Origin: Yoonia sp. R2331
GTDB lineage: Bacteria; Pseudomonadota; Alphaproteobacteria; Rhodobacterales; Rhodobacteraceae
DNA: 64,000 bases
Assembly (NCBI RefSeq): GCF_041103235.1
Contig: NZ_JBGCUN010000001.1
Location: forward strand, 1,922,001 to 1,986,000
Reading direction: 5' to 3'
This document shows positions 15,453 through 30,700 of this stretch, in pieces. Position numbers and translations under genes: made by a program. How positions within the stretch are numbered: position 1 is the first letter of the stretch; each line of letters opens with the position of its first letter. Under the pieces are notes generated by a model. The model ran no database searches, had not been told where the DNA came from, and was given only the letters and a program-made list of their open reading frames with translations.

Positions 15453-15654
15453 CGTGTTCCCTGTCGTCTTAAGTGGTCAGACGCGGGGGTTATTCCCCCT
15501 GCCCGTTATCATTAACCTTTGTTACGTCAAAGTCACGGTTCCGGATGCGTTTAGTTTCGTAAATGTGGGTCGGGACTGGATTTATGGCGCATCGCGTGGT
15601 GTAGACATCGCAACACCCCGGATGCGCGGGGCTTTGAACTGGGGAATACAAAAG

Positions 15655-16083
15655 ATGGGTATGATGCGGATGATCGGCGCTGGACTGGCGCTGCTGACAG
15701 TGGCGGGATGTGACGGGATCGCGGTGGCCAATGCGCCTGCCGATCAAATCGCCGTTGACACTCCCACGGTGCAGGCGCCCACTTCGATCACCGGTGTGAC
15801 ACCGCAGATGCTGCCACAAGCCATCGCCACCGGCCCTGCCCTTGACCTCAATTGGACCAACCGGTTCCAACCCAACGTCGCTTATGTGAACACCGGCGTT
15901 CTGGCCCTGCCGGTTTATTCCGGCCCCGACGGTCAGGATGTGGTGGCCCGCCTGTCCCCCGGCAACGGCGGCGGCATTGATGCCTGCGCGGTCGAGGTCA
16001 ACATGTGCTCTGTCGCCTTTGGCGAGCCTCTGCGCCGTGGCTGGGTCTTCATGGATAACATGGCCCCCGCACCCGCCAGCTAA
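15655..16083 (+). CDS. Small lipoprotein, function unknown
   Basis: A 142-residue predicted lipoprotein. The N-terminus MGMMRMIGAGLALLTVAGC ends in a lipobox (L-T-V-A-G-C, Cys19). The mature part has a short low-complexity stretch, then NVAYVNTGVLALPVYSGPDG (residues about 80-99), where the pattern V-N-x-x-x-L-x-V-x-x-x-P resembles the opening of a bacterial SH3 domain, and a CAVEVNMCSVAFG segment with two cysteines. I infer an SH3-like periplasmic protein. The ATG at 15655 follows GGGGAA; a longer reading would lack a signal sequence. It is divergent from cfa and its end overlaps the photolyase end by four bases. Confidence 0.75.
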   Translation: MGMMRMIGAGLALLTVAGCDGIAVANAPADQIAVDTPTVQAPTSITGVTPQMLPQAIATGPALDLNWTNRFQPNVAYVNTGVLALPVYSGPDGQDVVARLSPGNGGGIDACAVEVNMCSVAFGEPLRRGWVFMDNMAPAPAS

Positions 16084-17501
16084 GCCTTTTCGCGATTGCT
16101 ATAAGCCTCCAACGCCCGCGCGCGCCCTGCTTCGGGCGTGACAATCGGGCTGGGGTAGCTGTCGCCGGGTGACATGGCCCAGCTTTTGGGGATTGCGTCG
16201 AAATAGGCCAGCGCCTCGTCAGCGGGATTACGATACTCTTCGGCGATCCAGCGGCCGACATAGGTGCGATCCTTGTCGAATTTGTCCAGCTGCGTGACCG
16301 GGTTGAACACCCGGAAATAGGGCGTGGCATCGGGACCAGAGCCTGCCGACCATTGCCAGCCCATCGCGTTGGAACACGGGTCCCAGTCGATCAGGCAATC
16401 TGCAAACCAATCTAGCCCGATCTTCCAATGGCTCATCAGATGCTTGGTCAGATAGGACGCCACAATCATCCGACCCCGGTTGTGCATTGTGCCCGTCACA
16501 TACATCTCGCGCATCGCCGCATCGACAAACCGCACACCCGTGCGCCCGCGTTTCCAGGCCGTCACCTCTGCGGTTTCATCGCGGTTCCAAGGGAAGGCAT
16601 CCCACTCCGGCTTCCAATTGCCGGATGTGATATGCGGCGTGTGGTGGGTCAGGTGATATGCAAATTCGCGCCAAACCAACTCCTTCAGGAACACTTCTGC
16701 ATCCGCCTTTCCCGCGTGCAGCGCAGCCCAGCCTGCATGCCAGCAGGTGCGCGGGCTGATTTCACCATAGGTCAGGTTTTCCGACAGGCGAGAGGTGCCG
16801 TCGACCCCCGGCAAATCACGGTTGGCCTGATAGTGGGCCACCTTGTCGTCGATGAAAGTCGCCAGTCGGGCCTCTGCCGCGACTTCGCCCACCGTGCAAT
16901 GCGGCCGCAGCACATCTGCCCCGCGCTGCATTGCGGCCCCCATATGCCAGCTGTCCAACGCATCGCTCTGGGGCCAACTGCCCGGCGCAGGCAAGGCGGC
17001 TGGCGCGGGCAAGGCGCTGGCAATCTCAGCCCCGCGCACAGCCTTCCACATCGGTGTGAACACCCGGTAGAAGCCACCTGTCTTGGTCTGCACTGTCCAG
17101 GGCTCAAACAAGACATGGCCCGGAAAGCTCTCGGCGATGACACCCGCATCTTTCAACGCTGCTTTCACACTGGTATCGCGCGCCTTGGACGCCGGATCAT
17201 AAAGCCGCGACCAATAGACCGCCCCCGCCCCGGTCTCGGCAATCAAGGCCTGCAAGACCGCCAACGCTGGCCCGCGCCGCAGGATCAGGCGGCTGCCAAT
17301 CTCTGCCAGTCTTGACGCCAAATCGGCCACCGACAAACCCAGACGAAACTTTGGTGCGGCACCGTGCGTCTCAACGACTTCATCATGAATGAAGACCGGG
17401 ATCACCGGCCGTCCCGTCGCCGCGGCGGCACAAAGTGCCGGATGATCCGCCAGCCGCAGATCGCGCCGAAACCACAGAATAATTGGTGTTGTGTCAGACA
17501 T
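16080..17501 (-). CDS. phrB: Deoxyribodipyrimidine photolyase
   Basis: A 473-residue light-driven enzyme that splits cyclobutane pyrimidine dimers. The N-terminal antenna-binding domain starts ILWFRRDLRLADHPAL (about 8-23). The FAD domain carries LSENLTYGEISPR, WREFAYHLTHHTP and the segment MREMYVTGTMHNRGRM, all typical of class I photolyases, and SNAMGWQWSAGSG near the C-terminus. The ATG at 17501 (MSDTTPIILWF) follows GGGGCG; an earlier start at 17516 is possible. It lies 71 bases after an SRPBCC gene on the same strand, which is the order seen in photo-oxidative stress clusters of relatives. Confidence 0.93.
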   Translation of the reverse strand: MSDTTPIILWFRRDLRLADHPALCAAAATGRPVIPVFIHDEVVETHGAAPKFRLGLSVADLASRLAEIGSRLILRRGPALAVLQALIAETGAGAVYWSRLYDPASKARDTSVKAALKDAGVIAESFPGHVLFEPWTVQTKTGGFYRVFTPMWKAVRGAEIASALPAPAALPAPGSWPQSDALDSWHMGAAMQRGADVLRPHCTVGEVAAEARLATFIDDKVAHYQANRDLPGVDGTSRLSENLTYGEISPRTCWHAGWAALHAGKADAEVFLKELVWREFAYHLTHHTPHITSGNWKPEWDAFPWNRDETAEVTAWKRGRTGVRFVDAAMREMYVTGTMHNRGRMIVASYLTKHLMSHWKIGLDWFADCLIDWDPCSNAMGWQWSAGSGPDATPYFRVFNPVTQLDKFDKDRTYVGRWIAEEYRNPADEALAYFDAIPKSWAMSPGDSYPSPIVTPEAGRARALEAYSNREKA

Positions 17502-17572
17502 GAACGCCCCTTGCATGTGAACCCCGCAACCTAGCGCGCGGGCCACCGCGTCAAGGGATGCCTTTGGCGCTC

Positions 17573-18010
17573 TCAGCCCATCTCAGCCTCGGCAAAACGC
17601 TTGAAGTCCTGCATCATCTTCTCGGTCTGTTTGCGGAACATGCCGGGGGCCACAAACGCCATGACCTTCAGAAACCCACTACAGCGAAAATCGCAATCCA
17701 TGTTCCAGCGGGTTGCCTCGCCCAGATCCGTGAATGTGTTCACATTCCGGTTCCACACGCCTTTGGTCTCGTACACCGCCACCATCCGGTCAGGCATGGC
17801 ATGTTCTTCCAGCGTCTCGATCATCTCGATCTCGCGCTTGCCCATCTTGTAGCGGATGCGGGACCTCGACCCGACCGCGCCAAATTCACCCTCAAAGTGC
17901 TCAAAGCTCTGCAAGCCGTCCTGCCACTGCATCAGGTTGTCAGGATCATCAAACAGCGCCGTGACCCGGTCGCGCGGGCCATTGATGTCGATCGTGCATT
18001 GGTATTGCAT
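17573..18010 (-). CDS. SRPBCC family protein
   Basis: A 145-residue START-like (SRPBCC) protein, a fold that binds hydrophobic ligands. The first strand is MQYQCTIDINGPRDRVTALFDDPDNL and the long C-terminal helix is RKQTEKMMQDFKRFAEAEM (quoted in part), both standard. There is no signal peptide. GGGGGAGA precedes the ATG at 18010. It sits between a class-V aminotransferase gene (42 bases upstream) and the photolyase gene, all on the minus strand. An SRPBCC gene beside phr is part of the singlet-oxygen regulon in R. sphaeroides as I recall it; ligand and role are unknown. Confidence 0.8.
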   Translation of the reverse strand: MQYQCTIDINGPRDRVTALFDDPDNLMQWQDGLQSFEHFEGEFGAVGSRSRIRYKMGKREIEMIETLEEHAMPDRMVAVYETKGVWNRNVNTFTDLGEATRWNMDCDFRCSGFLKVMAFVAPGMFRKQTEKMMQDFKRFAEAEMG

Positions 18011-18052
18011 GGCATCTCCCCCGCCTGATCCTACCTGATTAGACGGGGCGGA

Positions 18053-19270
18053 TCAAAGCACCTGATCCAGCGCCGTGATCAACTGATCCACCTCAGCACG
18101 GCTGGTGTAATGCGTAAACGATACCCGCAGCACGCCGTTTTCAGGGTCCACCCCCATCGCGGTCAGCGGGCGTATGGCATAGAAATCCCCGCCTCCCGCC
18201 ATGACCCCATGTGGTGCCAATTCGCGGGCCAGCGCCTCTGCATTGCCCTGCGCGGCCAAGGCCACGGTTGGCGCGCGTCGGGCTGCCTCCACAGGGCCGA
18301 TCACCCGCACCGAGTTCTTGGCGGCAACGTAATCCAGCAAGGGCTGCAGCAAGGCAACCTCGGCATCCCGCATAAGCCTATGCGCATGCCGCGCTGCACC
18401 GGCCCCGCTGGCGGGCCCGCCGTGATGTGCGCTCAGCGCCTCAAAATAATCCGCCATCCCCGCACTTGCCGCGATCTGCGCGTGGTCCGGACCCGCAGGC
18501 GTGAACCGCTGATACAAGGTCCCGCCATTAAAGAAATGCCCCTGATTGGGCAGTGCAGTTCCGAACGCCCGGCGGATCACCATCAGCCCCTGATGTGGAC
18601 CATAGGTCTTGTAAGCGCTGAACAGATACACATCACACCCCAGCGCGCCCACATCTTCAAACCCATGTGGTGCGTATGAAACCCCGTCCACGCAAGTCCG
18701 CACGCCGTGGTCGCGGGCCACGGCGCAAATCGCAGCCACATCATTGATCGCCCCCACCACGTTGGAACAATGCGGAAAACACAACAGCTTGGCCCCATCC
18801 AGCAGCGCAGGCAAATCTGCGAGGTCCAACTCTCCGGTTTCGGGGTCCACCTGCCACTCGCGCACCGTGATCCCTGCGTCCGCCAACCTGCGCCACGGCC
18901 CGGAATTGGCCTCGTGATCCTGATTGGTCACCACGATGGCATCACCTGGCATCAACCAACCTCGCACCGCCTGCGCCAGCACGTAAGTGTTCTGCGTGGT
19001 CGACGGCCCAAACGACAGCTCGTCGGTGTCCACACCCAGCATCGCGGCCAAGCGGCTGCGGGCCTCATCCATCTCGGCCCCCGCCAATTCTGAGGCCGGA
19101 TAGGGCGCATAAGGCTGCACCTTGCGCTGCGTGTAATAGCGCGTCAGCCGGTCAATGACCTGCCCGCAGGTATAGGACCCGCCTGCGTTTTCAAAAAAGG
19201 CCTGCCCTTGCAAGGACGGCTCGGCGAAGGCGGGAAATTGGGCGCGCACCCATGCGGTATCAAGTGTCAT
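18053..19270 (-). CDS. Cysteine desulfurase-like class-V aminotransferase
   Basis: A 405-residue PLP enzyme of the class-V fold (cysteine desulfurase/SufS relatives). The PLP lysine is Lys221 in YLFSAYKTYGPHQG; TNQDHEANSGPW (115-126) and the cofactor aspartate in CVDGVSYAPHGF (193-204) match the family. The C-terminal catalytic-cysteine loop of true desulfurases is not evident, and the set of motifs (ENAGGSY near 27-33, GPHQGLM) points to the 'cysteine desulfurase-like' subfamily of unknown substrate. It probably starts the transcript with the SRPBCC and photolyase genes. The terminator of the BCCT gene lies between it and that gene. Confidence 0.82.
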   Translation of the reverse strand: MTLDTAWVRAQFPAFAEPSLQGQAFFENAGGSYTCGQVIDRLTRYYTQRKVQPYAPYPASELAGAEMDEARSRLAAMLGVDTDELSFGPSTTQNTYVLAQAVRGWLMPGDAIVVTNQDHEANSGPWRRLADAGITVREWQVDPETGELDLADLPALLDGAKLLCFPHCSNVVGAINDVAAICAVARDHGVRTCVDGVSYAPHGFEDVGALGCDVYLFSAYKTYGPHQGLMVIRRAFGTALPNQGHFFNGGTLYQRFTPAGPDHAQIAASAGMADYFEALSAHHGGPASGAGAARHAHRLMRDAEVALLQPLLDYVAAKNSVRVIGPVEAARRAPTVALAAQGNAEALARELAPHGVMAGGGDFYAIRPLTAMGVDPENGVLRVSFTHYTSRAEVDQLITALDQVL

Positions 19271-19337: not shown

Positions 19338-21014
19338 TTATTCAGCGGGTGTTGTCACCGGATCAACGGTCACAGAGTCGACGCCTGCCGCTTCTCTGCG
19401 GCTGTCGTTAAAGATCGCCTTGATCAGCGCCAGACACATCAGCGCCATCACGATCGAGAACGGAAGCGCCCCGATCACCATAGCGGTCTGAATGGCCCCG
19501 GTTCCGCCAGAGATCAGCAATCCGCCAACCACCAGTGCAAGTGCGGCACCCCAGAACAGGATGTGCGGACGTGCTTTTGGACCTTCGTCGCCAGCGGCGT
19601 TGATGGTGTTCACGATCAACACGGCCGAGTCGGCAGATGTCACAAGGAACGTCATCAGCAAGACCACGATCACAACCGCCATGCCCCAGGCCAACGCGTC
19701 GGCAATCGGGGACAACATGAACTCTGTCATCGCAAAGATCTTGTCACCGTTTGCCGCGTCCAGAATGACGCCATTTGCACCACCGTTCAGCTCCAGATCG
19801 ATGGCTGTACCACCGGCCCACGCAAACCAGACAAAGCACATCAGCGACGGCACGATCATCGCACCCAGCACAAACTCGCGGATCGACCGACCGCGCGAAA
19901 TACGCGCCAGGAACAATCCCACGAATGGTGCAAATGCGATCCACCAGGCCCAGTAGAAGACCGGCCACCAGCCCTGCCATTGCGTCAGCAGGAAGGATTC
20001 AGACCCTTCAACACCGTCAGAGGTATAGACGTTGAAGCTCAGCCCAGGCAACGCGACCAGATAGTCGTAGATGCCAATGAAGAAGGCCGATGCACCAAAG
20101 AATGTCGCGCCAAAGATGATGAAGAAGCTCAGCAAGAAGATCGACAACACCATGTTGATGTTTGACAGCCACTTGATGCCCTTGCCGACACCAGACAGCG
20201 CAGACAAGGTCGACGCGCCCATGATGACCAGCAGGGCAACAACGATCCCCGTTGTGGTCGCGGTACCGTCTTCCATCGCCAGTCCGCCGATCCCAATCCG
20301 TGTCAGACCGGCGACAAACTGTTCCACCCCAAAGCCAAGCGTCTGCGCCACACCAAGAATGGTGGCGACCACAGCGACAATATCAATGATATGACCCGGC
20401 ATCCCGGACAGGGATTTGCCAAAAAGTGGTGTCAGCGATGACCGGATGGTCAGCGGCAAGCCGCGGCGATAGCTAAAGAATGCCAGAGACAGACCAGCAA
20501 TCGCATAACAGGCCCAGGCGCCCAAACCCCAGTGCAGGTAGGACCAGACATAAGCCGTGCGGACGTTATCCGCATCCAACGCCGTGGTGATCCCCTGAAT
20601 GACCGATGGGTTGTTCTTGAAATGCGCGACGGGTTCCGCCACCGCCCAAGTCAACATGCCGACACCGATACCGGCACCAAACATCATCGAGAACCAGGAA
20701 AAGTTTGAAAACTCAGGCTTTTCTCCGTCCGCCCCAAGGTTCAATCGTCCCGCGGCGGGCCAGATCGCAAGCCCGATACACACAATCACAAACGCGGCCA
20801 CGACCCAGATGTACCAAGCCGCAAAACTGGCCAGAATGGCCGAGTTCCAGGTGCCCAGCACGTTCCCAGCCTGCACAGGCCAGAAGATACACCAGACGAC
20901 AAGCACACTGATAATGATTTTACTTATCACCGTCACATTGACGCTGAAGCCACGGTAAAACCCGGCCTCCGCCGTCTTGATCGGCAAATCCGATAGAGGT
21001 GGTTTGATTGACAT
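19338..21014 (-). CDS. BCCT family transporter (candidate DMSP/betaine importer)
   Basis: A 558-residue secondary transporter of the betaine-carnitine-choline family, which import quaternary ammonium or tertiary sulfonium compounds with Na+ or H+. Twelve spans are expected. Family marks include GAGIGVGMLTWAVAEP (about 111-126), the core YWAWWIAFAPFVGLFLARIS (about 348-367) and SRGRSIREF just after. BCCT members such as DddT carry DMSP in marine bacteria, and this gene lies directly downstream of acuI and dmdA, so DMSP is a reasonable substrate by context; glycine betaine is an equally common one. It has its own upstream region and terminator and so is probably a separate transcript. Confidence 0.92.
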   Translation of the reverse strand: MSIKPPLSDLPIKTAEAGFYRGFSVNVTVISKIIISVLVVWCIFWPVQAGNVLGTWNSAILASFAAWYIWVVAAFVIVCIGLAIWPAAGRLNLGADGEKPEFSNFSWFSMMFGAGIGVGMLTWAVAEPVAHFKNNPSVIQGITTALDADNVRTAYVWSYLHWGLGAWACYAIAGLSLAFFSYRRGLPLTIRSSLTPLFGKSLSGMPGHIIDIVAVVATILGVAQTLGFGVEQFVAGLTRIGIGGLAMEDGTATTTGIVVALLVIMGASTLSALSGVGKGIKWLSNINMVLSIFLLSFFIIFGATFFGASAFFIGIYDYLVALPGLSFNVYTSDGVEGSESFLLTQWQGWWPVFYWAWWIAFAPFVGLFLARISRGRSIREFVLGAMIVPSLMCFVWFAWAGGTAIDLELNGGANGVILDAANGDKIFAMTEFMLSPIADALAWGMAVVIVVLLMTFLVTSADSAVLIVNTINAAGDEGPKARPHILFWGAALALVVGGLLISGGTGAIQTAMVIGALPFSIVMALMCLALIKAIFNDSRREAAGVDSVTVDPVTTPAE

Positions 21015-21390
21015 TGTGGTGTTCCCTATTGGCTATTTTTTTGTGCAACAAGCCTACGACGACCGCATTTCAAAAAGAAGTGTTAACTCCAATTTTTTAT
21101 CGCTTTTTTGGCAATTTTTGGTGCTTCAGAGACCTTATTTCGTGCTTCTTTCGACACATGGCCGGTCAAGACAGGCAAAAAAGGAAAAATCAACGTTGAA
21201 TGCAAAAATCGACACGAAGCGGTGCCTTGGAAAGCAATCCCAAAATGACATTTGAATATCTAGAAAACGCGAAGGCTTCGCCGGGATTTCACAAGGGCAA
21301 CGGCCAGACCTCGGCGATGGTTTTCAAGAACAACAGGATCGCACGGCTCGACAAAAACCGGCGCGTAGCCGCGCGTCCAAAAAAACAAAA
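21015..21390. other. Intergenic region upstream of the BCCT gene
   Basis: About 375 bases without a convincing gene. The stretch next to the BCCT ATG is unusually A+T-rich for this genome (runs such as TTTTTTGTG, AATTTTTTATCG), as expected for a promoter region or a regulator-binding site. Short open frames here have no ribosome site and no recognisable product. I see no tRNA or riboswitch fold. Confidence 0.5.
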
Positions 21391-21410
21391 GGCGCCCCCT
21401 CAGGGACGCC
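21391..21410 (-). terminator. Intrinsic terminator after acuI
   Basis: On the minus strand GGCGTCCC - TGAG - GGGGCGCC forms an 8-pair stem with one G-T pair, followed by TTTTGTTTTTTT. It lies 25 bases past the acuI stop. The plus-strand side also carries CTTTTT, so it may work both ways. Confidence 0.88.
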
Positions 21411-21435
21411 CTTTTTCACCCGGAATTTGAGTGGA

Positions 21436-22419
21436 TCAGCCGTTCACATCGACCACGACCCGGCCCTTCACCTGACCTTTCAGAATGTCACGCCCAAGGG
21501 CTGGCAGATCAGACAACACAGCCGGTTGCACCATCGCTTCCAGCTTGTCCATCGGCAGGTCCTTGGCGATCCGCGCCCAGGCCCGCACCCGATTGTCATA
21601 GGGCTGCATCACACTGTCGATGCCCAAAAGGTTGACCCCACGCAGCAGGAACGGAATGACCGTCGCAGGCAAACCTGCACCACCGGCAAGCCCAACCGCA
21701 GACACGCTCGCCCCATATTTCATCTGCCCCAGCACACGTGCCAGCATCTCACCACCAACAGCGTCGACGCAGCCGCCCCATGTCTCTGCTTCCAGCGGGC
21801 GCTTTGTGGTTTCATTCAATTCTGTGCGGGGCACGATCTGCGTGGCACCCAGCCCGGTCAGATAATCCGCCGTCTCGGGCCGCCCGGTGACAGCAGCCAC
21901 CTGATGCCCCAGATTGGCAAGGATCGCTGTCGCAACCGACCCGACACCGCCCGCGGCACCGGTGACCAGAACCGGCCCATCCTTGATCCCGTGATCTTCC
22001 AGCGCCATCACCGCGAGCATCGCAGTGAAACCCGCCGTCCCCACGGCCATCGCCTGCCGCGCTGTGATGCCGTCGGGAAGTGGCACCAACCAATCACCTT
22101 TCACCCGCGCTTTCTGGGCATATCCGCCCCAATGCGCCTCGCCCACGCGCCAACCTGTCAGCACAACGGCGTCGCCGGGCTTGTAGCGCGCGTCGTCCGA
22201 CGCCTCGACCGTGCCCGCAAAATCAATGCCCGGCACATGCGGATAATTCCGCACCAAGCCGCCACCCGGCCCAATGCACAGACCGTCCTTGTAGTTCACC
22301 GTCGAAAAATCGACCGCAACCGTCACATCCCCCTCGGGCAGTTGGTCCTCGGTGATCTGCTGCACAGCCGCAGCGGTCTTGCCTTCATCGTTCTTGGTCA
22401 CAACCAATGCGTTGAACAT
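21436..22419 (-). CDS. acuI: Acryloyl-CoA reductase AcuI (YhdH/YhfP-type MDR enzyme)
   Basis: A 327-residue zinc-free medium-chain reductase that uses NADPH to reduce acryloyl-CoA to propionyl-CoA, detoxifying acrylate from DMSP breakdown. Features are the N-terminal fold with DFSTVNYKDGLCIGPGG (about 38-54) and VPGIDFAGTV, and the nucleotide-binding turn VTGAAGGVGSVA (about 148-159). The ATG at 22419 (MFNALVV) has GGGAAAAG upstream and gives the usual family length. It lies 86 bases after dmdA on the same strand, the arrangement known for dmdA-acuI in Ruegeria pomeroyi, which strengthens the AcuI reading over a generic quinone oxidoreductase. Confidence 0.9.
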   Translation of the reverse strand: MFNALVVTKNDEGKTAAAVQQITEDQLPEGDVTVAVDFSTVNYKDGLCIGPGGGLVRNYPHVPGIDFAGTVEASDDARYKPGDAVVLTGWRVGEAHWGGYAQKARVKGDWLVPLPDGITARQAMAVGTAGFTAMLAVMALEDHGIKDGPVLVTGAAGGVGSVATAILANLGHQVAAVTGRPETADYLTGLGATQIVPRTELNETTKRPLEAETWGGCVDAVGGEMLARVLGQMKYGASVSAVGLAGGAGLPATVIPFLLRGVNLLGIDSVMQPYDNRVRAWARIAKDLPMDKLEAMVQPAVLSDLPALGRDILKGQVKGRVVVDVNG

Positions 22420-22436
22420 GTCTTTTCCCTTCATCC

Positions 22437-22490
22437 GGGGGCGCTGCCCCCTGCTTCTTCTGGCCAAAAATATCCCCGCCGGAGGCTCCG
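22437..22490. repeat. Intergenic GC-hairpin plus TTCTTCTGGCC element, copy A
   Basis: Between dmdA and acuI. A 6-base hairpin GGGGGC-GCT-GCCCCC (22437-22451) is followed by TGCTTCTTCTGGCCAAAAAT and ATCCCCGCCGGAGG. The middle part recurs at 54262-54292 next to another GC hairpin. Elements of this kind are scattered between genes in Rhodobacteraceae as far as I recall; the function is unknown. Confidence 0.6.
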
Positions 22491-22505
22491 ACAAGGCCGA
22501 CAGCG

Positions 22506-23606
22506 CTAAATCCAAAACTTCTCTTGCACGACTGCATCCCGCAGCCCGTCCGGTGTCTCCACCTGCAACGTGGTGCCTGCGTCCCAATGGGTCATCCGCA
22601 CCATGCCAATTGCAACACCTGTTTCAAAGTCGGGTGATGCCGCGGCAGAGGTCACCTGACCCACGCGCTTGCCACCTGCCAACAGCGGCCAGACGTCATC
22701 ACACGGTGGAATGTCACCGGCAATGCTGATCGGACGCACCTGTTGAATCGGACCTTCCTTGGCAACCCGCAACAGCGCATCGCGGCCCACACACCCAATC
22801 GCCGTCTGTGTCGAACAGAACCGCCCCAGCCCGGCCTCGTGCGGTGTGTTATGGCGCGTCATATCATTGCCGTAGGACAACAGCCCCCCCTCGATCCGTT
22901 CAATCAGGTTGGGGCATCCGGCATGCACATCCAGATCCTTGCCCGCCTCAAACAGCGCATTCCACAACGGCATCCCATTGGCAGTGCCATCGCAATAAAT
23001 CTCGAACCCGCCCTGTTTGGAGTACCCCGAACGCGCCACCGCCATCGATGTGCCTTGGAAATCAAACCAGCCAAAGCGGAAGAACTTCGTGCTGCGCACC
23101 GCCTCGCCGAAGACCCGCGCCATCAGTTCGTCGGCAAGCGGCCCTTGCACCGCAAGGGGCGAGACATCAGGCTCATCGACCAGCACATCCAACCGAAAGC
23201 CGTATGCCAAACCTTTGACCCAAAGCAGCAAATCGCTGTCTGCAATGGAAATCCACCAGCGGTCCTCTGCCAGTTTCAGCGCCACCGGATCGTTCAGCAT
23301 GCCACCTGTCTCATCGACGATAGGCACATAGAAACATTGCCCCGGCAACATCCCGCGCAGGTCACGCGGCGTCAGCATCTGCATCAACTTTGCGGCATCC
23401 GGGCCACGCAGTTCGATCTGACGCTCAACCGCGACATCCCAGACCTGCACCGCGTTCTTCAAATGGTGGTAATCCTCGACCACCGACCGAAACACTGTCG
23501 CCAACCGCATGCGGTTATAGACCGTAAATGACTTGACCCCTGCCGCCTCGACGCCGGGGGTAAAGGGTGTGGCGCGCACGCGCCGCGAAGTTGATAGCCC
23601 TGCCAT
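22506..23606 (-). CDS. dmdA: Dimethylsulfoniopropionate demethylase
   Basis: A 366-residue tetrahydrofolate-dependent enzyme of the GcvT fold that moves a methyl group from DMSP to folate, the first step of the demethylation pathway. It follows my memory of Ruegeria DmdA closely along its whole length: SRRVRATPFTPGVEAAGVKS near the start, YNRMRLATVF, LKNAVQVWDVAVERQ, VDETGGMLNDPVALKLA, DVSPLAVQGP, SKQGGFEIY, GCPNLIERIEGGLLSYGNDM and ARxS-like late motifs. GGMLNDPV distinguishes DmdA from the glycine-cleavage T protein. The ATG at 23606 gives the usual length. It is three bases after the DinB-like gene, so both are probably co-translated. Confidence 0.93.
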   Translation of the reverse strand: MAGLSTSRRVRATPFTPGVEAAGVKSFTVYNRMRLATVFRSVVEDYHHLKNAVQVWDVAVERQIELRGPDAAKLMQMLTPRDLRGMLPGQCFYVPIVDETGGMLNDPVALKLAEDRWWISIADSDLLLWVKGLAYGFRLDVLVDEPDVSPLAVQGPLADELMARVFGEAVRSTKFFRFGWFDFQGTSMAVARSGYSKQGGFEIYCDGTANGMPLWNALFEAGKDLDVHAGCPNLIERIEGGLLSYGNDMTRHNTPHEAGLGRFCSTQTAIGCVGRDALLRVAKEGPIQQVRPISIAGDIPPCDDVWPLLAGGKRVGQVTSAAASPDFETGVAIGMVRMTHWDAGTTLQVETPDGLRDAVVQEKFWI

Positions 23607-23609
23607 CCG

Positions 23610-24113
23610 TCAGTCCTCTGGCATGAAGACCAGATCCGTGTCATCAGGTTTGGCCCCCGCCGCCGTCAACATGGCGTGGACCTGCCCCCGATGATGGGTC
23701 TGGTGATTGAAAAAATGTGTTACACAATGGCCTACTGGCTTGTGAACTTCGCGGTTCATAGCCCCCGAAAACCAAGACAGCTCACCAACCAGATCAAGCG
23801 CCGAAAGCTCCGCGGCCCACTGCTTGATCCTGCCATCCGTGCGAAAACGCGCCGCCCACCAATCGCCAATTGTGGCGGTGTGATCGACACTTTGCTTAAT
23901 CGACGTTGCGGGGCTTTCGCCACCATCAAACCGGCCGATCCACAGTTGATCGGCCCACAACAGATGGTTCAGCGTGGCCCGGATCGACCCAAAGAAAGCA
24001 CCCCGATCCTGATCTAGATCGGTCGCCTTCATCGCCTCGACAATCTTCCATATCGCATTGTTTTGCCACGCATTATATCGCGCCATCACGCGGCAATACT
24101 CCGGCGTGATCAC
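23610..24113 (-). CDS. DinB-like four-helix metalloprotein
   Basis: A 167-residue DinB/YfiT-type helical bundle. The three metal-binding histidines are visible in RATLNHLLWADQLW (near residue 49) and THFFNHQTHHRGQVHAML (near 132-141). Such proteins often act as thiol-dependent S-transferases with bacillithiol, mycothiol or glutathione. The start is a GTG at 24113 overlapping the DUF1326 stop by four bases (GTGA). Located directly upstream of dmdA, it might handle a sulfur intermediate, which is inference from position only. Confidence 0.85.
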   Translation of the reverse strand: MITPEYCRVMARYNAWQNNAIWKIVEAMKATDLDQDRGAFFGSIRATLNHLLWADQLWIGRFDGGESPATSIKQSVDHTATIGDWWAARFRTDGRIKQWAAELSALDLVGELSWFSGAMNREVHKPVGHCVTHFFNHQTHHRGQVHAMLTAAGAKPDDTDLVFMPED

Positions 24114-24817
24114 GGTTTGGGGCCTTTCCAGTCAATCGGGCAGATCTCTGCCGATTTACCGCCAAAATCCCAAACCCGGCCGTAGTCGCGCACTCTGGAT
24201 TTCGTACCAGCGGCGGCAATGATGTCGGGGCCCATCCAATACTTGGAATTGCTGACCATCACCGGATGATCCGGGTCCGCGCCCTTCATCATCTCGATCT
24301 CGCCTTGGATCTTGCGTCCGATATAGATGCCGCGCTTCGTGCCCTCGCGCACGATTTCGACCTTTTCACGCTCTGCCCCGATGATCTCGGACACCAGCAT
24401 GGTGAACAGCCCCGTGGTGCCGCCCGCCTGCCCGGAAAAGATTTTCAGGATACCGTTATAGGCTTTCTGGCTGGACCGCTCATCGACATAAGCCGCAACC
24501 TTCCAATTGCCTTCGGCCATGCGGCCCGGAATGTCGACCAGCAGACCGACGTTCAGACCCGAAAGATCCTCGCCCTCGAAATGGCCTTCATCAATCGCAA
24601 TCGCCATCCAGGCGTGACAATGCCCCTCGGTCGGAGGATGTGCGCCCAGCGACACCACACAGGGGCAGAACACCGTGCAGGAACAATTCAGGAAAAGCTC
24701 TCCCTTGATTGCCCAATCAGTTGGTTGCAGCTTGCGGCGCTTGGGGTTGTCCATGCGCTGGTCGATGCGTTGCGAAATCGCGATGCGATCACTTGGTGCG
24801 CGTTTCTTATCAGCCAT
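24110..24817 (-). CDS. DUF1326 domain protein
   Basis: A 235-residue cytoplasmic protein of family DUF1326. The diagnostic cysteine cluster is LNCSCTVFCPC (Cys45, 47, 51, 53), preceded by the DWAIKGELF strand, with a later GLFTMLVSEIIGAE segment. The cysteines suggest metal or cluster binding. Function is unknown. It lies 13 bases after a DUF2182 gene; the two families are often adjacent in other genomes. An N-terminal tail of about 30 charged residues (MADKKRAPSDRI) precedes the domain. It overlaps the DinB-like gene by four bases. Confidence 0.85.
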   Translation of the reverse strand: MADKKRAPSDRIAISQRIDQRMDNPKRRKLQPTDWAIKGELFLNCSCTVFCPCVVSLGAHPPTEGHCHAWMAIAIDEGHFEGEDLSGLNVGLLVDIPGRMAEGNWKVAAYVDERSSQKAYNGILKIFSGQAGGTTGLFTMLVSEIIGAEREKVEIVREGTKRGIYIGRKIQGEIEMMKGADPDHPVMVSNSKYWMGPDIIAAAGTKSRVRDYGRVWDFGGKSAEICPIDWKGPKP

Positions 24818-24830
24818 TTATCAGCCTTTC

Positions 24831-25607
24831 CTAAAGTGATGTTGCGGCCAGCGCCACACCAGATGCAATCAAGAGATACCCCATCGGGCGCGTCACGCGG
24901 TGCCCGATCTGCGGCAGTTTTTCGAGAACCATGAACAGTGTCGCCAGCCCCATCCAAGCAAGGTTCATCACCCCGCCTACAAAACCCAGAGCCATGAAGC
25001 CCCAGCAGCACACGACACAAAACGCGCCCAGCCCCAGCCCCATACGCAGGCCACCGGCAAATCCGGTGCGCCAGTGGCCAAGAAAATAGCTCATCGGTGC
25101 ATGGCATACGCCATGGCAAACCTCTTTGGTGCGGGTGAACTGGAACGCACCGACCGCAATCAGCAAACCGGCCTGCAACCAGACCGATTGCGCACGGCCC
25201 AGCATGTCCACCACGCCGCCAAACAACAGCACGATCTGAGCGCCGGAAATCACTGCGGCGGCGACCACCCACATCACGAAATATCCCAGCAACACACCCA
25301 GCCATCCGGCCCGCGTGCCATCGGCACTGACCATCAATCGCTCATAGGTGGTCAGGGTTGGCACCATCGTCGGCAGCATCATCGCTGCCATCATGATCGC
25401 CCACATCAGGAAAACCGGCCCAAACCGCGCCATCGGCATGTCCATCGGCATTCGGGGGTCCATTGCGGCCATCGCCTGCCCTGCGGATCCCGGCCGCCCC
25501 AACAGGTCCAGATCCATATCAATCGCCATCACATACATCATCCACCACGCCACAAGGATTGCGCTGAAAAACGCAAGCCACAACGTGGACCGCATGACAT
25601 GATGCAT
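24831..25607 (-). CDS. DUF2182 integral membrane protein
   Basis: A 258-residue polytopic membrane protein of DUF2182, described as a predicted metal-binding membrane family. Marks are FLMWAIMMAAMMLPTMVP (about 65-82), FQFTRTKEVCHGVCHAPMSY with a C-x3-C pair, and FCVVCCWGFMALGF with adjacent cysteines. About seven helices are predicted. I chose the ATG at 25607 because GGAGG lies upstream; a longer frame would run through the divergent regulator. It is the first gene of the minus-strand run DUF2182 - DUF1326 - DinB - dmdA, with a shared promoter region of 67 bases to the regulator gene. Confidence 0.85.
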   Translation of the reverse strand: MHHVMRSTLWLAFFSAILVAWWMMYVMAIDMDLDLLGRPGSAGQAMAAMDPRMPMDMPMARFGPVFLMWAIMMAAMMLPTMVPTLTTYERLMVSADGTRAGWLGVLLGYFVMWVVAAAVISGAQIVLLFGGVVDMLGRAQSVWLQAGLLIAVGAFQFTRTKEVCHGVCHAPMSYFLGHWRTGFAGGLRMGLGLGAFCVVCCWGFMALGFVGGVMNLAWMGLATLFMVLEKLPQIGHRVTRPMGYLLIASGVALAATSL

Positions 25608-25649
25608 AAGACGCGCCTCCCAAAGCGACTCAGGACTTGCTAAATCAAA

Positions 25650-25673
25650 TGTCAGACTTTTAAATGTCTGACA
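25650..25673. promoter_or_regulatory. Twin FadR-type operator in a perfect inverted repeat
   Basis: TGTCAGAC (25650-25657) and GTCTGACA (25666-25673) form a perfect inverted repeat with an 8-base A+T spacer. Each arm by itself fits the GntR/FadR core GT-N3-AC (GTCAGAC and GTCTGAC). It sits between the divergent DUF2182 and FadR-type regulator genes and ends one base before the regulator ATG, so binding there should block the regulator's own translation start region and could control both directions. Confidence 0.75.
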
Positions 25674-25674
25674 A

Positions 25675-26403
25675 ATGAAAATTGATCCAGACAACCCCGC
25701 TGATCTGTCCGCACAGATCGCCAAATCAATCCGCGACGCGATTGTGTCGGGTGATTTGCGCGTTGATGACCGCCTGCCGTCAGAGGCAGAATTGTCCGAG
25801 CAATTCGCGGTCAGCCGTTCCACCGTGCGCGAGGCGCTCAAACGTTTAGGCGCGCAAAGCCTGATCCGCACGCAACGCGGCGCGACCGGCGGGGCCTTTG
25901 TCAACAAGCTGACCTACCCCGACGCTTACGGCCAGCAAATCACGACCTCGACGTTACTGCTGTCGATGAACGCGGTCAGCTTTGCCACAGCCTGCGAGGC
26001 GCGTTATGCGCTTGAACGCGCCTGCGCGCCCCTTTCAGCCCAGCGCCGCACCGCAGATCATCTTGCCACCATGCGGGCCGAAGCACATCGTCAGGCACAA
26101 CCGGGCCTGACGGACGAGGCGTTTTGCGCTAGCGACGTGGCCTTTCACCGCGCCCTTGTCGATGCCGCGGCAAACCCCGTGCTGTCCTACCAATTGGCTG
26201 GCGCGGTCGAGGCGATTGAACCCCTGATGAACATGATCACCTTCAGCGCCCGGTCCCGCGAAACCATCGTCGCCTTGCACAGCGCCATCGCCGATGCGAT
26301 CGAGGCGCAGGACGCTGCGTTGACCGACGTCAAACTGGCGGAGCTGGCGAGCTATACCAACGATCTGGCGCAAAGCGTTTTTGCCGCCCGTCAAAAGACC
26401 TGA
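25675..26403 (+). CDS. FadR-type (GntR/FCD) transcriptional regulator
   Basis: A 242-residue regulator. Residues about 12-75 are a GntR winged helix (LRVDDRLPSEAELSEQFAVS and RSTVREALKRLGAQSLI carry the signature), and residues 90-225 an all-helical FCD ligand domain with typical His/Asp metal positions in SDVAFHRALVDAA and a late ALHSAIADAIEA. Such proteins usually repress until they bind a small organic acid. The perfect inverted repeat immediately upstream is the likely operator. It is divergent from the DUF2182-to-dmdA run, so it is a candidate regulator of DMSP demethylation. Confidence 0.92.
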   Translation: MKIDPDNPADLSAQIAKSIRDAIVSGDLRVDDRLPSEAELSEQFAVSRSTVREALKRLGAQSLIRTQRGATGGAFVNKLTYPDAYGQQITTSTLLLSMNAVSFATACEARYALERACAPLSAQRRTADHLATMRAEAHRQAQPGLTDEAFCASDVAFHRALVDAAANPVLSYQLAGAVEAIEPLMNMITFSARSRETIVALHSAIADAIEAQDAALTDVKLAELASYTNDLAQSVFAARQKT

Positions 26404-26457: not shown

Positions 26458-27567
26458 ATGCCCGACTTCCCGCCGTCCCGTAATGCCGCCCATGCCCGGC
26501 TAACCGCCTTCTTGCCTGCCGCCGGTGTCGCCTATGCCCGCACCCGCAATTTTGACCGCGCAGGTCATGTCTCAGCATTGTCGCCCTACATCCGCCACCG
26601 CGTGATTACCGAAGAGGACGTGCTGCGCGCCACCCGCGCCGCCCACAGCTACAAGGCCGCTGAAAAGTTCATTCAAGAGGTCTACTGGCGCACCTATTGG
26701 AAGGGCTGGCTGGAACTGCGCCCCGCGGTCTGGGACCAGTACAAGGCCGACCGCACCGCAGCCTGGAACGCTGTGCAAACCCAATCGGGCCTGCGGCAGC
26801 GGTGGCAGGATGCCTGCGCAGGCGACACTGGCATCGCCTGTTTCGACCATTGGGCGCGGGAATTGGTGCAAACCGGCTATCTGCACAATCATGCGCGGAT
26901 GTGGTTCGCCTCGATCTGGATTTTCACGTTGCAATTGCCTTGGTCACTGGGGGCCGATTTCTTTCTGCGCCACTTGCTGGATGGTGACCCGGCGGCCAAT
27001 ACCCTGTCGTGGCGCTGGGTCGGCGGGCTGCAAACGGTTGGTAAGACCTACCTTGCCCGGCGCGCCAATATTGCCGAACACACCGATGGCCGGTTTGATC
27101 CGGCCGGCCTTGCCAGCCATGCACCGCCACTGACCGGCCCACCCGCACCGCGACCGGGCCCGCCGCCTGTGTCCGATCCCTTGCCCACCTCGGGCCGGAT
27201 CGGCCTTTTGGTAACAGAAGAGGACATGTCCCCCGACTGGCTGCACATTACACCTGTCGCCACAGCATTTTGTCAGACAACAGACCACCGAAGCCACTTG
27301 CAAGTCGCACCGCAAGTTACTGAATTTGTGTCGAAACTTTCTGATGCTCCCAAAATTATTCCTGCTGGCATCCGCGATTGGATGACAGCACACAAGCTCG
27401 ACCACGTTGTGACCTCCTACATCCCCGTAGGCCCAACCCGCGATGCCCTTGCAGAGGCGCCCCTGATCCAGCGCATCCGCGCCTATGACGCTGCCGCCTG
27501 GCCGCGTGCCACTGCAGGTTTTTTCAAGTTCAAAACCGCCATTCCAAGCTTGCTCGCCGGGCTTTAA
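26458..27567 (+). CDS. Photolyase/cryptochrome-like protein with inverted domain order
   Basis: A 369-residue protein. The N-terminal half is a photolyase FAD domain: AYARTRNFDR, VSALSPYIRHRVIT, FIQEVYWRTYWKGWLELRP, YLHNHARMWFASIWIF and LSWRWVGGLQTVG correspond to the conserved FAD-binding helices. The antenna domain that precedes this in ordinary photolyases is missing from the N-terminus. Instead, after a proline-rich linker (about 220-240), the C-terminal half starts RIGLLVTEEDMSPDWL and ends AWPRATAGFFKFKTAIPSLL, which looks like a degenerate antenna-type Rossmann domain placed second. This suggests circular permutation. The activity (DNA repair or light sensing) cannot be told. The ATG is close to the end of the regulator gene (54 bases). 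Confidence 0.8.
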   Translation: MPDFPPSRNAAHARLTAFLPAAGVAYARTRNFDRAGHVSALSPYIRHRVITEEDVLRATRAAHSYKAAEKFIQEVYWRTYWKGWLELRPAVWDQYKADRTAAWNAVQTQSGLRQRWQDACAGDTGIACFDHWARELVQTGYLHNHARMWFASIWIFTLQLPWSLGADFFLRHLLDGDPAANTLSWRWVGGLQTVGKTYLARRANIAEHTDGRFDPAGLASHAPPLTGPPAPRPGPPPVSDPLPTSGRIGLLVTEEDMSPDWLHITPVATAFCQTTDHRSHLQVAPQVTEFVSKLSDAPKIIPAGIRDWMTAHKLDHVVTSYIPVGPTRDALAEAPLIQRIRAYDAAAWPRATAGFFKFKTAIPSLLAGL

Positions 27568-27600: not shown

Positions 27601-27734
27601 ATTCGGTCAAGACAAACTCAAATTTTCCATGCCTTGAACCCAATCTCGCCACGCCTTCCGCATAGGTCATGAGGCGGGACAGAAGGTTCGCAGCGTGTTG
27701 GTGCTGCATCAGAACCCACGAGGAGAGAGCAGTA

Positions 27735-30700
27735 ATGGCAACCGGTTATCTGGTAAATCTTGGCGCGGATGGCGTTCTTGGGATCGATGACACGATCTCG
27801 GGCAGCCAGTCGACGTTCACCGAAGACGGCGCTGCAATTGCAACCGGTAGCTGGGTTTGGACAGGCGTCTGGACCGGCAATGGCCAAACATACTCCAACA
27901 TCCCCGACACCGGTCTGTTCTACCTCGGCACAGACGGCAACACCTACTTCATCCCCGATACCTGGACCATTTCCAGTGGCTCTGCCGTGGTGACCTCTGC
28001 CCTTGATGGCACTGTTGATGGCACCTCTGGCGACGATGTGATCAACGCCAACTACACCGGCGACCCCGGCGGCGACCAAACCTCTGGTGCGGATGACACG
28101 ATCAATGCAGGCAGCGGCGATGACACCGTGCAGGCAGGCCTGGGCGATGACATCATCGACGGCGGCACCGGCAACGACAGCATCACCGGCGAAACCGGCG
28201 ACGACAGCATCTTAGGTGGCGCGGGCAATGATATCCTGCGCGGCGACGAAAGCGCAGGCACCGGCCGCGCTGTCTTCCAATGGAGCGCGGCCCCCGACCC
28301 TTCCGGCGATGGCTCTGCTATCGACGACGGCGACTTCATGACCGCAGGCTTCGGCCAGGACACCGGCGGCACAACGATCACCTATGCCTATAACGCCTCG
28401 CCCACAGGTTTCCCCGATGGCTCTGGCGGTTCGGACACAACGCCCGAATACAGCACCCTGACCAACGTTGTCAGCGGCATCAACACCGGCGGCGCGCCGG
28501 TGGACACCAACAGCTCTCTCTGGATCGGTGGTGATCTGGCCAGCTCCGCCGCCGACCTCACCTTTGCGGACCCGGTCACCAACGTCTCTTTCCGCGTCAA
28601 CGACATCGACAGCAACGGCATCTTCACCGACCGCGTGACGATCCGCGCCTATGACGCCAACGGTCTTCCTGTCACCGTGACCCTGACCCCGGGTGCCAAT
28701 CTGATCCTCGATGCGACCAACAACAACGTCACCTCAAACGGAACCGCTCACAGCGCCAACGATCCCGAAGCCTCGGTCCTGGTGAATATCCCCGGCCCGG
28801 TGTCCCGGATCGAGATCATCTATACCGACACCGACCAGACCGGCGATGACGGTCTGGTCAACGTCACCGACATCTACTTTGACGAAGTCGCCGACCCCAC
28901 CGGCGACGACACCATTTCAGGTGGCCTGGGCGACGACACGATCTTCGGTGACGGCGGCAACGACCTGCTGACAGGCGATGACAACAATGACGAAATCTAC
29001 GGCGGCGAAGGTGCCGATTCCGCCTTTGGCGGCACCGGCGATGACACGGTATCTGGTGGCGAAGGTGCCGACTACATTGATGGCGACGCAGGCAACGACA
29101 CGCTTTACGGCGGCGGTGGCGCGGACACCATCGTTCTGGACGCAGGCAATGATGTGGCCTTCGGCGGCTCGGGCGGCGACGACATCTCGGCCACGGGCGG
29201 CGACAACACCGTCTTTGGCGACGGCGGTGCAGATACCATCACCATGGGCGCAGGCAATGACGTCATCGACGGCGGCGACCAAAGCGATGAAATCTACGGC
29301 GGTGCAGGTGACGACATCCTCGACGGTGGCGAAGAGGCCTCAGTCGGTGACGATGACACGCTTTATGGCGGTGCTGGCAACGACACCCTGACCGAAACCG
29401 AAACGGACGCAAATTCCAACGACGAACTGCATGGCGACGCGGGCAACGACACGCTGTCATCCAACACCGGTGTTGATACGCTCTATGGTGGTGCGGATCG
29501 CGACACGCTGATCCTGTCTGACACCAGCGGCGCAGACCAGATCGAAGGCGGCGAAGCGGGCGACGACTACGACGTCCTCGATGGCTCGGGCCTGACCCAG
29601 GACACGACCATCACCTGGACAGGCGCGGAACAAGGCACCGCCAGTCGCAACAGCGAAACCGCGCAGTTTTCCGAAATTGAAGAGGCGCGCACCGGGTCCG
29701 GCAACGATACCATTGATGCATCCGGCTCGCCCTCTGGCGTTGTTGTCGACAGCGGTGCTGGCGATGACAGCATCACCGGCTCTGCGGCTGACGATACCAT
29801 CGACGCGGGCGACGGTGCGGATACCGTCGATGGCGGCGCTGGTGACGACACCATTGATCTGGGTGGCACTGGCCCCGATGGCGATGCGGACCTGCTGGTC
29901 TTCTCTGATGGTGACGGCAATGACACCGTCACCAATTTTGATGCCCCAACGCCCAATGGCGATGGCACCTTCACCGGCATTGATCTGCTGGATGTCTCCA
30001 GCCTGACGGATGCGGGCGGCGACCCGGTCAATACCCATGATGTGACCGTCACGGATGATGGCTCGGGCAATGCGGTGCTGACTTTCCCCGGTGGCGAAAG
30101 CATCACGCTGGTCGGGATTTCACCTGCGGATGCCGATAATCCTTACTACCTGACCGCAATCGGCATCCCCCTGCCGGACGGCACAGTTGAAGGCACGGCA
30201 GGTGCTGACACCATCGACGCAAGCTATACTGGCGACCCCGATGGCGACCGGATTGACGCCGACGATGTGATCATCCCGGGCCACGGTGCAAATGATGATC
30301 TGGTCTATGGCTACGGCGGCGCTGACAGTATCACCTCCGGCGACGGCAATGACACCATCTATGGCGGCACGGGCAACGACACCATCGACGGCGGCGCAGA
30401 CGCGGACACGATCTTTGGTGGCGCGGATGCCGACACCATCATCGGGGGCGGCGGCGATGTCGTCGACGGCGGCGAAGCGGGCAATGACAATGACACGCTG
30501 ACCGTCTCTGCCGTGGACCGCATCGAATATGACGCGGGCAATTTTGAAAACGGCACTGTCTACTTTGCGGACGGCACAACGCTCGACTTCACCAATATCG
30601 AAAACGTTGTGGTCACTGACCGCGACGGCACGGTCAGTGGCACCGCCGGTGGTGATCTGATCGACGCGGGCTATACCGGCGACCCTGATGGTGACGTGGT

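Follow-up and report, generated by a model that had tools for sequence, protein, structure and literature searches.

Demethylation of dimethylsulfoniopropionate (DMSP) steers sulfur away from the climate-active gas dimethyl sulfide. Three described systems come closest to the locus analyzed here. In Ruegeria pomeroyi, dmdA lies immediately upstream of acuI (SPO1913-SPO1914; Todd et al. 2012, PMC3338564); among 26 DmdA-bearing Roseobacters, 24 are described as having acuI immediately 3′ of dmdA, and the R. pomeroyi pair is induced ~14-fold by DMSP and ~12-fold by acrylate (PMC3338564). In Marinomonas mediterranea, the gene for a PpoB2-family protein (COG5486/PF09948) shares an operon with that for its partner (ppoB1-ppoB2), and the protein donates copper to the tyrosinase from that operon but not to a different oxidase (PMC2855505). 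In Hyphomicrobium and in R. pomeroyi (SPOA0269-0271), the mtoX-SCO1-mauG operon joins a copper-dependent oxidase of the SBP56 family to an operon-encoded copper chaperone (PMC5739008). Here we analyzed a stretch of 64,000 nucleotides from Yoonia sp. R2331 (the window, to which all plain coordinates refer), in which genes for a PpoB2 protein and a DUF1326 protein precede dmdA and acuI on the minus strand. As in R. pomeroyi, dmdA stands immediately upstream of acuI, and as in M. mediterranea, the PpoB2 family gene is found in one predicted operon with a partner. The association of the PpoB2-DUF1326 pair with dmdA-acuI is conserved and not local, and the pair is very probably a functional part of a DMSP/acrylyl-coenzyme A (acrylyl-CoA) operon.

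To compare gene order around dmdA in relatives, we sampled 198 genomes of Rhodobacteraceae, each from a different genus, of which 84 encode DmdA over the curated cut-off, 106 encode DUF1326, and 110 encode PpoB2. The nearest DUF1326 gene lies within 5 kb of dmdA and on the same strand in 64 of the 84 DmdA genera and is upstream of dmdA in all 64; in the remaining genera it is absent (13 of 84) or located elsewhere or on another contig (7 of 84). This linkage exceeds chance. PpoB2 was found within 2 kb of DUF1326 and on the same strand for 119 of 123 DUF1326 copies. The close type of DUF1326 (type A, separated from type B with a hand-made list) occurs in 71 of 84 genomes with DmdA versus 24 of 114 without it (p = 1e-19, a nominal value because the genera are related). 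Among the 137 loci fetched from this sample we counted 93 close DUF1326 copies, defined by a score of at least 200 bits to the window copy; every one has PpoB2 just upstream (93 of 93), and DmdA (over 200 bits) lies downstream of 63 of them. Also present at these 63 dmdA-linked loci are acuI (56), a divergent regulator (50), a DinB gene (32), a BCCT transporter (15), and a ligase (8) that we call dmdB-like only, because it falls far below the cut-off of the NCBIfam 3-(methylthio)propionyl-CoA ligase model. The dmdA regions listed numbered 91; 80 were fetched, plus that of genome G066 with other ends, and the 10 left out were six second copies and four regions from three genomes (G172 twice, G146, and G120). 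Open reading frame calls in the fetched loci include some false frames and shifted starts.

An earlier note on this DNA, made from its sequence alone, had assigned three extra genes ahead of dmdA (DinB, DUF1326, and DUF2182) to the DMSP locus, a proposal that it considered lost if all relatives lacked the linkage. The linkage is conserved ahead of dmdA-acuI in the 64 genera counted above, and the proposal is borne out for DUF1326 and for DUF2182, now named PpoB2. DinB, seen in only 32 of the 63 dmdA-linked loci (in 30 of these 32 between DUF1326 and dmdA), proved to be an optional gene and not a regular member.

The pair was also found with DMSP-pathway genes in other families. A class-wide alphaproteobacterial sample of 289 genomes contained DUF1326 in 37, and among the 20 regions fetched from it, three from three other families hold a close-type pair with such genes. 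One has the order PpoB2-DUF1326-ligase-SBP56 on one strand, the ligase being an acyl-CoA ligase (L321); the others have PpoB2-DUF1326-DmdA-ligase, with DmdA over its cut-off at 505 bits (L336), and PpoB2-DUF1326-ligase (L337). A tree of 154 DUF1326 sequences places 101 of the 102 DMSP-linked sequences within a single 113-member clade, which has a long stem of 0.56 substitutions per site (support 0.92); the lone DMSP-linked sequence outside it is divergent and comes from a locus with an acyl-CoA ligase gene nearby. Divergent copies of the pair elsewhere in Rhodobacteraceae have no adjoining dmdA or acuI. Type-B pairs have the order DUF1326 then PpoB2, and 114 of their 125 listed neighbor proteins revealed no consistent neighbors among the 25 of 124 families listed. 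Two divergent DUF1326-PpoB2 pairs were observed face to face in one genome (L087, G036:C40:212640-217125).

The features of the locus in the window are as follows.

24831-25607, minus strand: PpoB2 (DUF2182), 258 amino acids, first gene of the predicted operon; PF09948 at 193.8 bits (cut-off 28.7)
24110-24817, minus strand: DUF1326 protein; PF07040 at 172 bits (cut-off 25)
23610-24113, minus strand: DinB/YfiT-fold protein with a GTG start; PF05163
22506-23606, minus strand: dmdA, DMSP demethylase; NCBIfam equivalog NF009133 at 648.6 bits (cut-off 410)
21436-22419, minus strand: acuI, acrylyl-CoA reductase, last gene of the predicted operon; TIGR02823 at 441 bits (cut-off 297)
21414-21387, minus strand: terminator-like hairpin 3′ of acuI, 12 pairs, with a T-rich tail
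19338-21014, minus strand: BCCT transporter; PF02028 at 487 bits
25675-26403, plus strand: divergent GntR/FCD (FadR-subfamily) regulator; PF00392 and PF07729 over cut-off
25648-25675: putative operator of two boxes 15 bp apart, AATGTCAGACTTT (25648-25660) and AATGTCTGACAAA (25663-25675)

The seven genes of the earlier note were all found at the coordinates it gave, and the spacings agree: 13 bp between PpoB2 and DUF1326, a 4-bp overlap of DUF1326 with DinB, and 3 bp between DinB and dmdA. The gap between dmdA and acuI is 86 bp. We took the ATG at 25607 as the start of PpoB2; a longer frame is possible from a TTG at 25907. The acuI product passes the cut-off of the wider subfamily TIGR02823 (acrylyl-CoA reductase family) and lies just below that of the NCBIfam equivalog NF051456 for AcuI (422 bits, cut-off 440). 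The predicted operon extends from PpoB2 to acuI. A BCCT transporter gene does lie downstream, as had been noted, but it is probably carried on a separate transcript, because 421 bp and a terminator-like hairpin intervene after acuI, and we regard it as a neighbor of the operon and not a member. Its product is below the NCBIfam equivalog for glycine betaine BCCT transporters (NF047988; 398 bits, cut-off 650). The hairpin after acuI has the most pairs among the terminator-like sites listed, although the scan of the region gave 19 such sites against 10.9 in shuffled sequence, so that any single site is only suggestive. A second, weaker hairpin in the dmdA-acuI gap (22496-22474) was rejected as an operon end because it overlaps a dispersed repeat, CTCCGGCGGGGATATTT (22468-22484), that occurs in 38 copies in the genome with at most one mismatch (reversed pattern, 0 copies). 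A scan with the σ70 consensus gave no promoter-like site near PpoB2, with one site in the whole region where 2.9 were expected.

We examined both proteins of the pair for residues that might bind metal, taking conserved cysteine and methionine residues of PpoB2 as candidate ligands, a criterion chosen in this analysis. Pfam now describes the former DUF2182 family (PF09948) as a "copper chaperone," and by family PpoB2 is an integral membrane protein. For Met-68, Met-72, Met-76, Met-77, Cys-164, Cys-168, Cys-197, Cys-200, and Cys-201, conservation is 0.94 or higher in every one of three groups that total 142 sequences. The DUF1326 protein contains a CxCx3CPCx13C motif, whose five cysteines (Cys-45, Cys-47, Cys-51, Cys-53, and Cys-67) are identical in 153 of 153 aligned relatives. 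Clusters of the CxCx3CPC form are typical of metal carriers as well. Four further residues, His-60, Met-100, Met-195, and Cys-226, are conserved at 0.95 or above in the close type and at no more than 0.38 in the others. A sequence search of solved structures found nothing similar to DUF1326, and AlphaFold modeled it poorly (mean predicted local distance difference test score (pLDDT) of 65.3 and predicted template modeling (TM) score of 0.67; the other four models are below 46). The model loosely resembles acetoacetate decarboxylase-like proteins, with 15 matches at E ≤ 0.001 that have TM scores of 0.32-0.44 and root mean square deviations (r.m.s.d.) above 9 Å, and we treat this fold as a lead only. 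Judged from family and from the conserved Cys/Met residues, a metal role is the best reading for PpoB2 and DUF1326. The extra genes had been suggested earlier to handle a metal or sulfur by-product; the metal half of that suggestion holds for these two proteins, whereas general by-product handling gives way to copper handling, as predicted by family.

The regulator transcribed divergently from the operon had been labeled FadR-type, which is right at the level of PF00392 plus PF07729; none of the 25 NCBIfam models listed for it reached its cut-off. The second box of the operator, AATGTCTGACAAA, touches the regulator start codon. A GTCNGAC core is present in 102 of 117 divergent-regulator regions compared with 72 of 480 control windows. 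In the one-per-genus sample it is present in 49 of 54 regions compared with 170 of 1080 control windows, and 27 regions share the 15-bp spacing. The FCD regulator is a divergent gene with a conserved palindromic operator, to which it is predicted to bind. The pattern WWTGTCWGACWWW was found at five distinct places in the 4.03-Mb genome of the window (G000), two of which are this operator; reversed-pattern controls gave 1 and 2 matches. Another of the five lies in the gap between pth and a gene for an SBP56 protein, a methanethiol oxidase homolog, 113 bp before the SBP56 ATG. A stricter palindrome occurs at 2-4 places in each of six genomes of the same genus, with the operator of the DMSP operon in 6 of 6 and the exact box upstream of SBP56 in 4 of 6 (G000, G489 of the same species, G485, and G488). 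An exact box was also observed upstream of a gene for a family-5 ATP-binding cassette solute-binding protein, beside an AraC-type regulator (L287, G000:C1:1364666-1364678), and among the six genomes it is found only in the two of the window's species. A family-wide list of operator boxes (126 of 198 genomes) was left out of the target counts.

We conclude that PpoB2 and DUF1326 make up a predicted copper-handling module that is integral to the DMSP operon, with copper as the presumed metal, a view that follows from the copper donation by Marinomonas PpoB2 and from the Pfam family to which the window protein belongs. In the most economical reading, which we favor tentatively, the pair would deliver copper to a cuproenzyme needed in DMSP catabolism; the linkage to dmdA, the near-constant pairing, and the conserved Cys/Met residues speak for it. 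The pair would form the promoter-proximal half of the operon: PpoB2 would bind and move copper through its Met/Cys sites in the membrane, DUF1326 would receive it on the five invariant cysteines, and the copper would be handed to a cuproenzyme, most likely an SBP56-type methanethiol oxidase (cluster 1) where one is present and another client elsewhere. Acting through AATGTCWGACAAA boxes, the FCD regulator would keep the operon, and within this genus the oxidase gene as well, repressed until the cell forms a product of DMSP, for example acrylate or acrylate's CoA ester. A conserved module of this kind suggests an unrecognized metal requirement in DMSP breakdown.

We considered the SBP56 protein as a candidate client. 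SBP56 oxidases need copper (PMC5739008; PMC10362175), and in R. pomeroyi mtoX is induced by DMSP, methylmercaptopropionate, and methanethiol (PMC5739008). The window genome has an unlinked SBP56 gene (G000:C1:347113-348486) with a PF05694 score of 569 bits, whose product is probably a methanethiol oxidase of the cluster-1 subtype, because the three cysteine motifs of that cluster are present (GWNACS, HTIHC, and GGDCS) and two cluster members degrade methanethiol (PMC10936201). Further links between SBP56 and the operon are the one-strand order at L321, the exact box ahead of SBP56 in four genomes of the genus, and a genome from a different genus in which SBP56 adjoins the regulator (L119/L130). 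The gene directly 3′ of the window genome SBP56 (L121:8393-9064) has no Pfam match and so is neither SCO1 nor MauG. Across the loci of this subtype covered for the next gene (the window genome plus L299-L308 and L316-L320; SBP56 of the 555-595-bit class), 13 of 15 resolved loci have a gene for a protein of another kind, 198-237 amino acids long and not SCO1 or MauG, and for this reason we know of no dedicated chaperone for this SBP56 subtype. These proteins look hydrophobic, carry an HGxxPGMGW-like motif where the called start reaches it, and gave no Pfam match in the two tested; they may be transporters or assembly factors for the SBP56 oxidase.

A number of observations weigh against delivery to such an oxidase. 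The window genome SBP56 is far below the NCBIfam model for MtoX (NF052453; 136 bits, cut-off 650). An SBP56 match of more than 900 bp is lacking in 47 of 95 module-bearing genomes, and among DmdA genomes SBP56 occurs in 42 of 71 with the module and 6 of 13 without it (p = 0.54), which is no excess of co-occurrence; the oxidase is therefore not the only client. Methanethiol oxidase as the sole client was not upheld by co-occurrence over the 198 genera, and treating the two SBP56 subtypes separately left that outcome unchanged. SBP56 lies directly 3′ of dmdA in G066, a genome without DUF1326, and two genomes of the window's genus (G486 and G487) have PpoB2-DUF1326 and the operator with no SBP56 match. 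Of the 21 SBP56 genes whose upstream regions were covered, three, all from this genus, are preceded by the exact box, and no such box stands ahead of the second SBP56 subtype of G485 and G488. The SBP56 search behind this count of 21 gave 30 loci, of which seven were left out as fragments or distant relatives (L309-L315); upstream regions were resolved with orientation checked for 16 of 23 loci and added for five on the plus strand, with L292 and L293 left out.

The loci without an intact dmdA bear on the same question. Thirty close DUF1326 copies have no intact dmdA downstream and are followed by acuI (20), by a crotonyl-CoA carboxylase/reductase gene (2, both matches over their cut-off), or by a ligase gene (1); among the other seven, acuI lies beyond the regulator in L086 and L099, and the contig ends at L064 and L090. 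The presence of acuI or crotonyl-CoA reductase in 22 of these 30 loci points to acrylyl-CoA and not to methanethiol, and the acuI-only loci are evidence against a role tied solely to methanethiol. Two dmdA fragments persist between DUF1326 and acuI at L110, and loss of dmdA therefore explains at least part of the acuI-only pattern.

Copper buffering, as opposed to delivery, would account for the acuI-only loci (20 of 30, plus the two with crotonyl-CoA reductase) and for the module in the 47 of 95 genomes without a near-full-length SBP56. Under this explanation methanethiol and the electrophile acrylyl-CoA would deplete or bind the cell thiols that normally hold Cu(I), and the co-induced pair would keep the copper safe while DMSP and acrylate are catabolized, which is consistent with the induction of R. 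pomeroyi dmdA-acuI both by DMSP and by acrylate (PMC3338564). However, the only characterized PpoB2 that we found donates copper to one enzyme (PMC2855505), and the type-B pairs have no recurring stress or copper-efflux neighbor among the 25 of 124 families listed. We consider buffering possible but somewhat unlikely.

An alternative in which DUF1326 is itself a metalloenzyme, with PpoB2 as its copper donor in the manner of PpoB1/PpoB2, draws on the near-obligate pairing with PpoB2 (119 of 123 copies overall and 93 of 93 close copies) and on the long-stem clade that holds 101 of the 102 linked sequences. The substrate could be methanethiol or an acrylyl thioester, for example. His-60, Met-100, Met-195, and Cys-226, kept in the close type and mostly missing elsewhere, are in line with such a role, as is, at low confidence, the fold match to acetoacetate decarboxylase-like proteins. 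That match comes from a poor model (pLDDT 65.3) with r.m.s.d. values above 9 Å, however, and the CxCx3CPC cluster would equally suit a carrier, so that an enzymatic DUF1326 seems unlikely. Delivery, buffering, and a DUF1326 enzyme are not separable from sequence. We also regard as distinctly doubtful a more specific form, an unrecognized copper-thiolate step in Rhodobacteraceae DMSP catabolism in which the PpoB2-metallated DUF1326 clade would act as an enzyme or carrier for methanethiol or acrylyl thioesters and replace an absent SBP56.

Least probable of all is that shared descent and a good promoter keep the genes together with no functional tie to DMSP, for although the class-V aminotransferase gene and others further downstream, probably unrelated to DMSP, likewise keep their place in many loci, close DUF1326 adjoins dmdA, dmdB-like, acuI, or crotonyl-CoA reductase genes in varied combinations, in other families too, divergent copies of the pair elsewhere lack an adjoining dmdA or acuI, and the operator box is common to an SBP56 gene elsewhere in the genome.

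The DinB protein gave a confident AlphaFold2 model (pLDDT 96.2). Foldseek matched it to YizA (two chains at E ≤ 0.001) and, more weakly, to YfiT, the Mycobacterium tuberculosis mycothiol S-transferase, and BstA; mycothiol and bacillithiol S-transferases are among these weaker matches. His-50 is invariant and His-137, His-140, and His-141 are nearly so. The protein is predicted to be a helix bundle like the solved structures of the DinB/YfiT fold with conserved histidines, and a thiol-transferase activity is at most predicted. The sequence search of solved structures with DinB gave one DinB-like protein, at E = 0.92. A reading of the whole operon centered on DinB as a thiol transferase was dropped on account of its presence in only 32 of 63 dmdA-linked loci.

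Downstream of the DMSP locus, at 14244-19270, lie a gene for a class-V aminotransferase (cysteine desulfurase-like) and genes for SRPBCC-like, photolyase-like, and cyclopropane-synthase-like proteins, the last three assigned by eye or from their resemblance to genes of relatives. In many relatives, parts of the block also adjoin the DMSP locus, and it is possibly a photo-oxidative stress group. On the other side, after the regulator, 26458-27567 encodes a photolyase-like protein whose Pfam match is only to the FAD-binding domain PF03441, and 27669-33014 is a 1781-amino acid open frame in which many GGxGxD-type repeats and, toward the C terminus, a Hint-like stretch were recognized by eye.

The linkage of dmdA with acuI was already known, whereas a widely conserved metal module within the operon was apparently unrecognized. 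The R. pomeroyi account (PMC3338564), in its available part, covers dmdA-acuI only and makes no mention of PpoB2, DUF1326, or DinB ahead of dmdA. Within open-access full text, subscription papers and supplements being outside the scope of the search, no paper was found that ties PpoB2/DUF2182 or DUF1326 to dmdA. If the pair belongs to the DMSP operon of most dmdA-bearing Rhodobacteraceae genera, copper availability becomes a candidate control on the partitioning of DMSP sulfur by marine bacteria. Two little-characterized families, PpoB2 and DUF1326, gain a testable pathway, and the regulator and its operator are open to assay. The mtoX operon (PMC5739008) differs from the present system in having SCO1/SenC as the chaperone together with MauG and an IclR regulator, and the SBP56 protein of the window genome is of another subtype. 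Unlike the ppoB1-ppoB2 operon of Marinomonas, the locus has no tyrosinase; here PpoB2 is partnered by DUF1326 in the context of DMSP catabolism.

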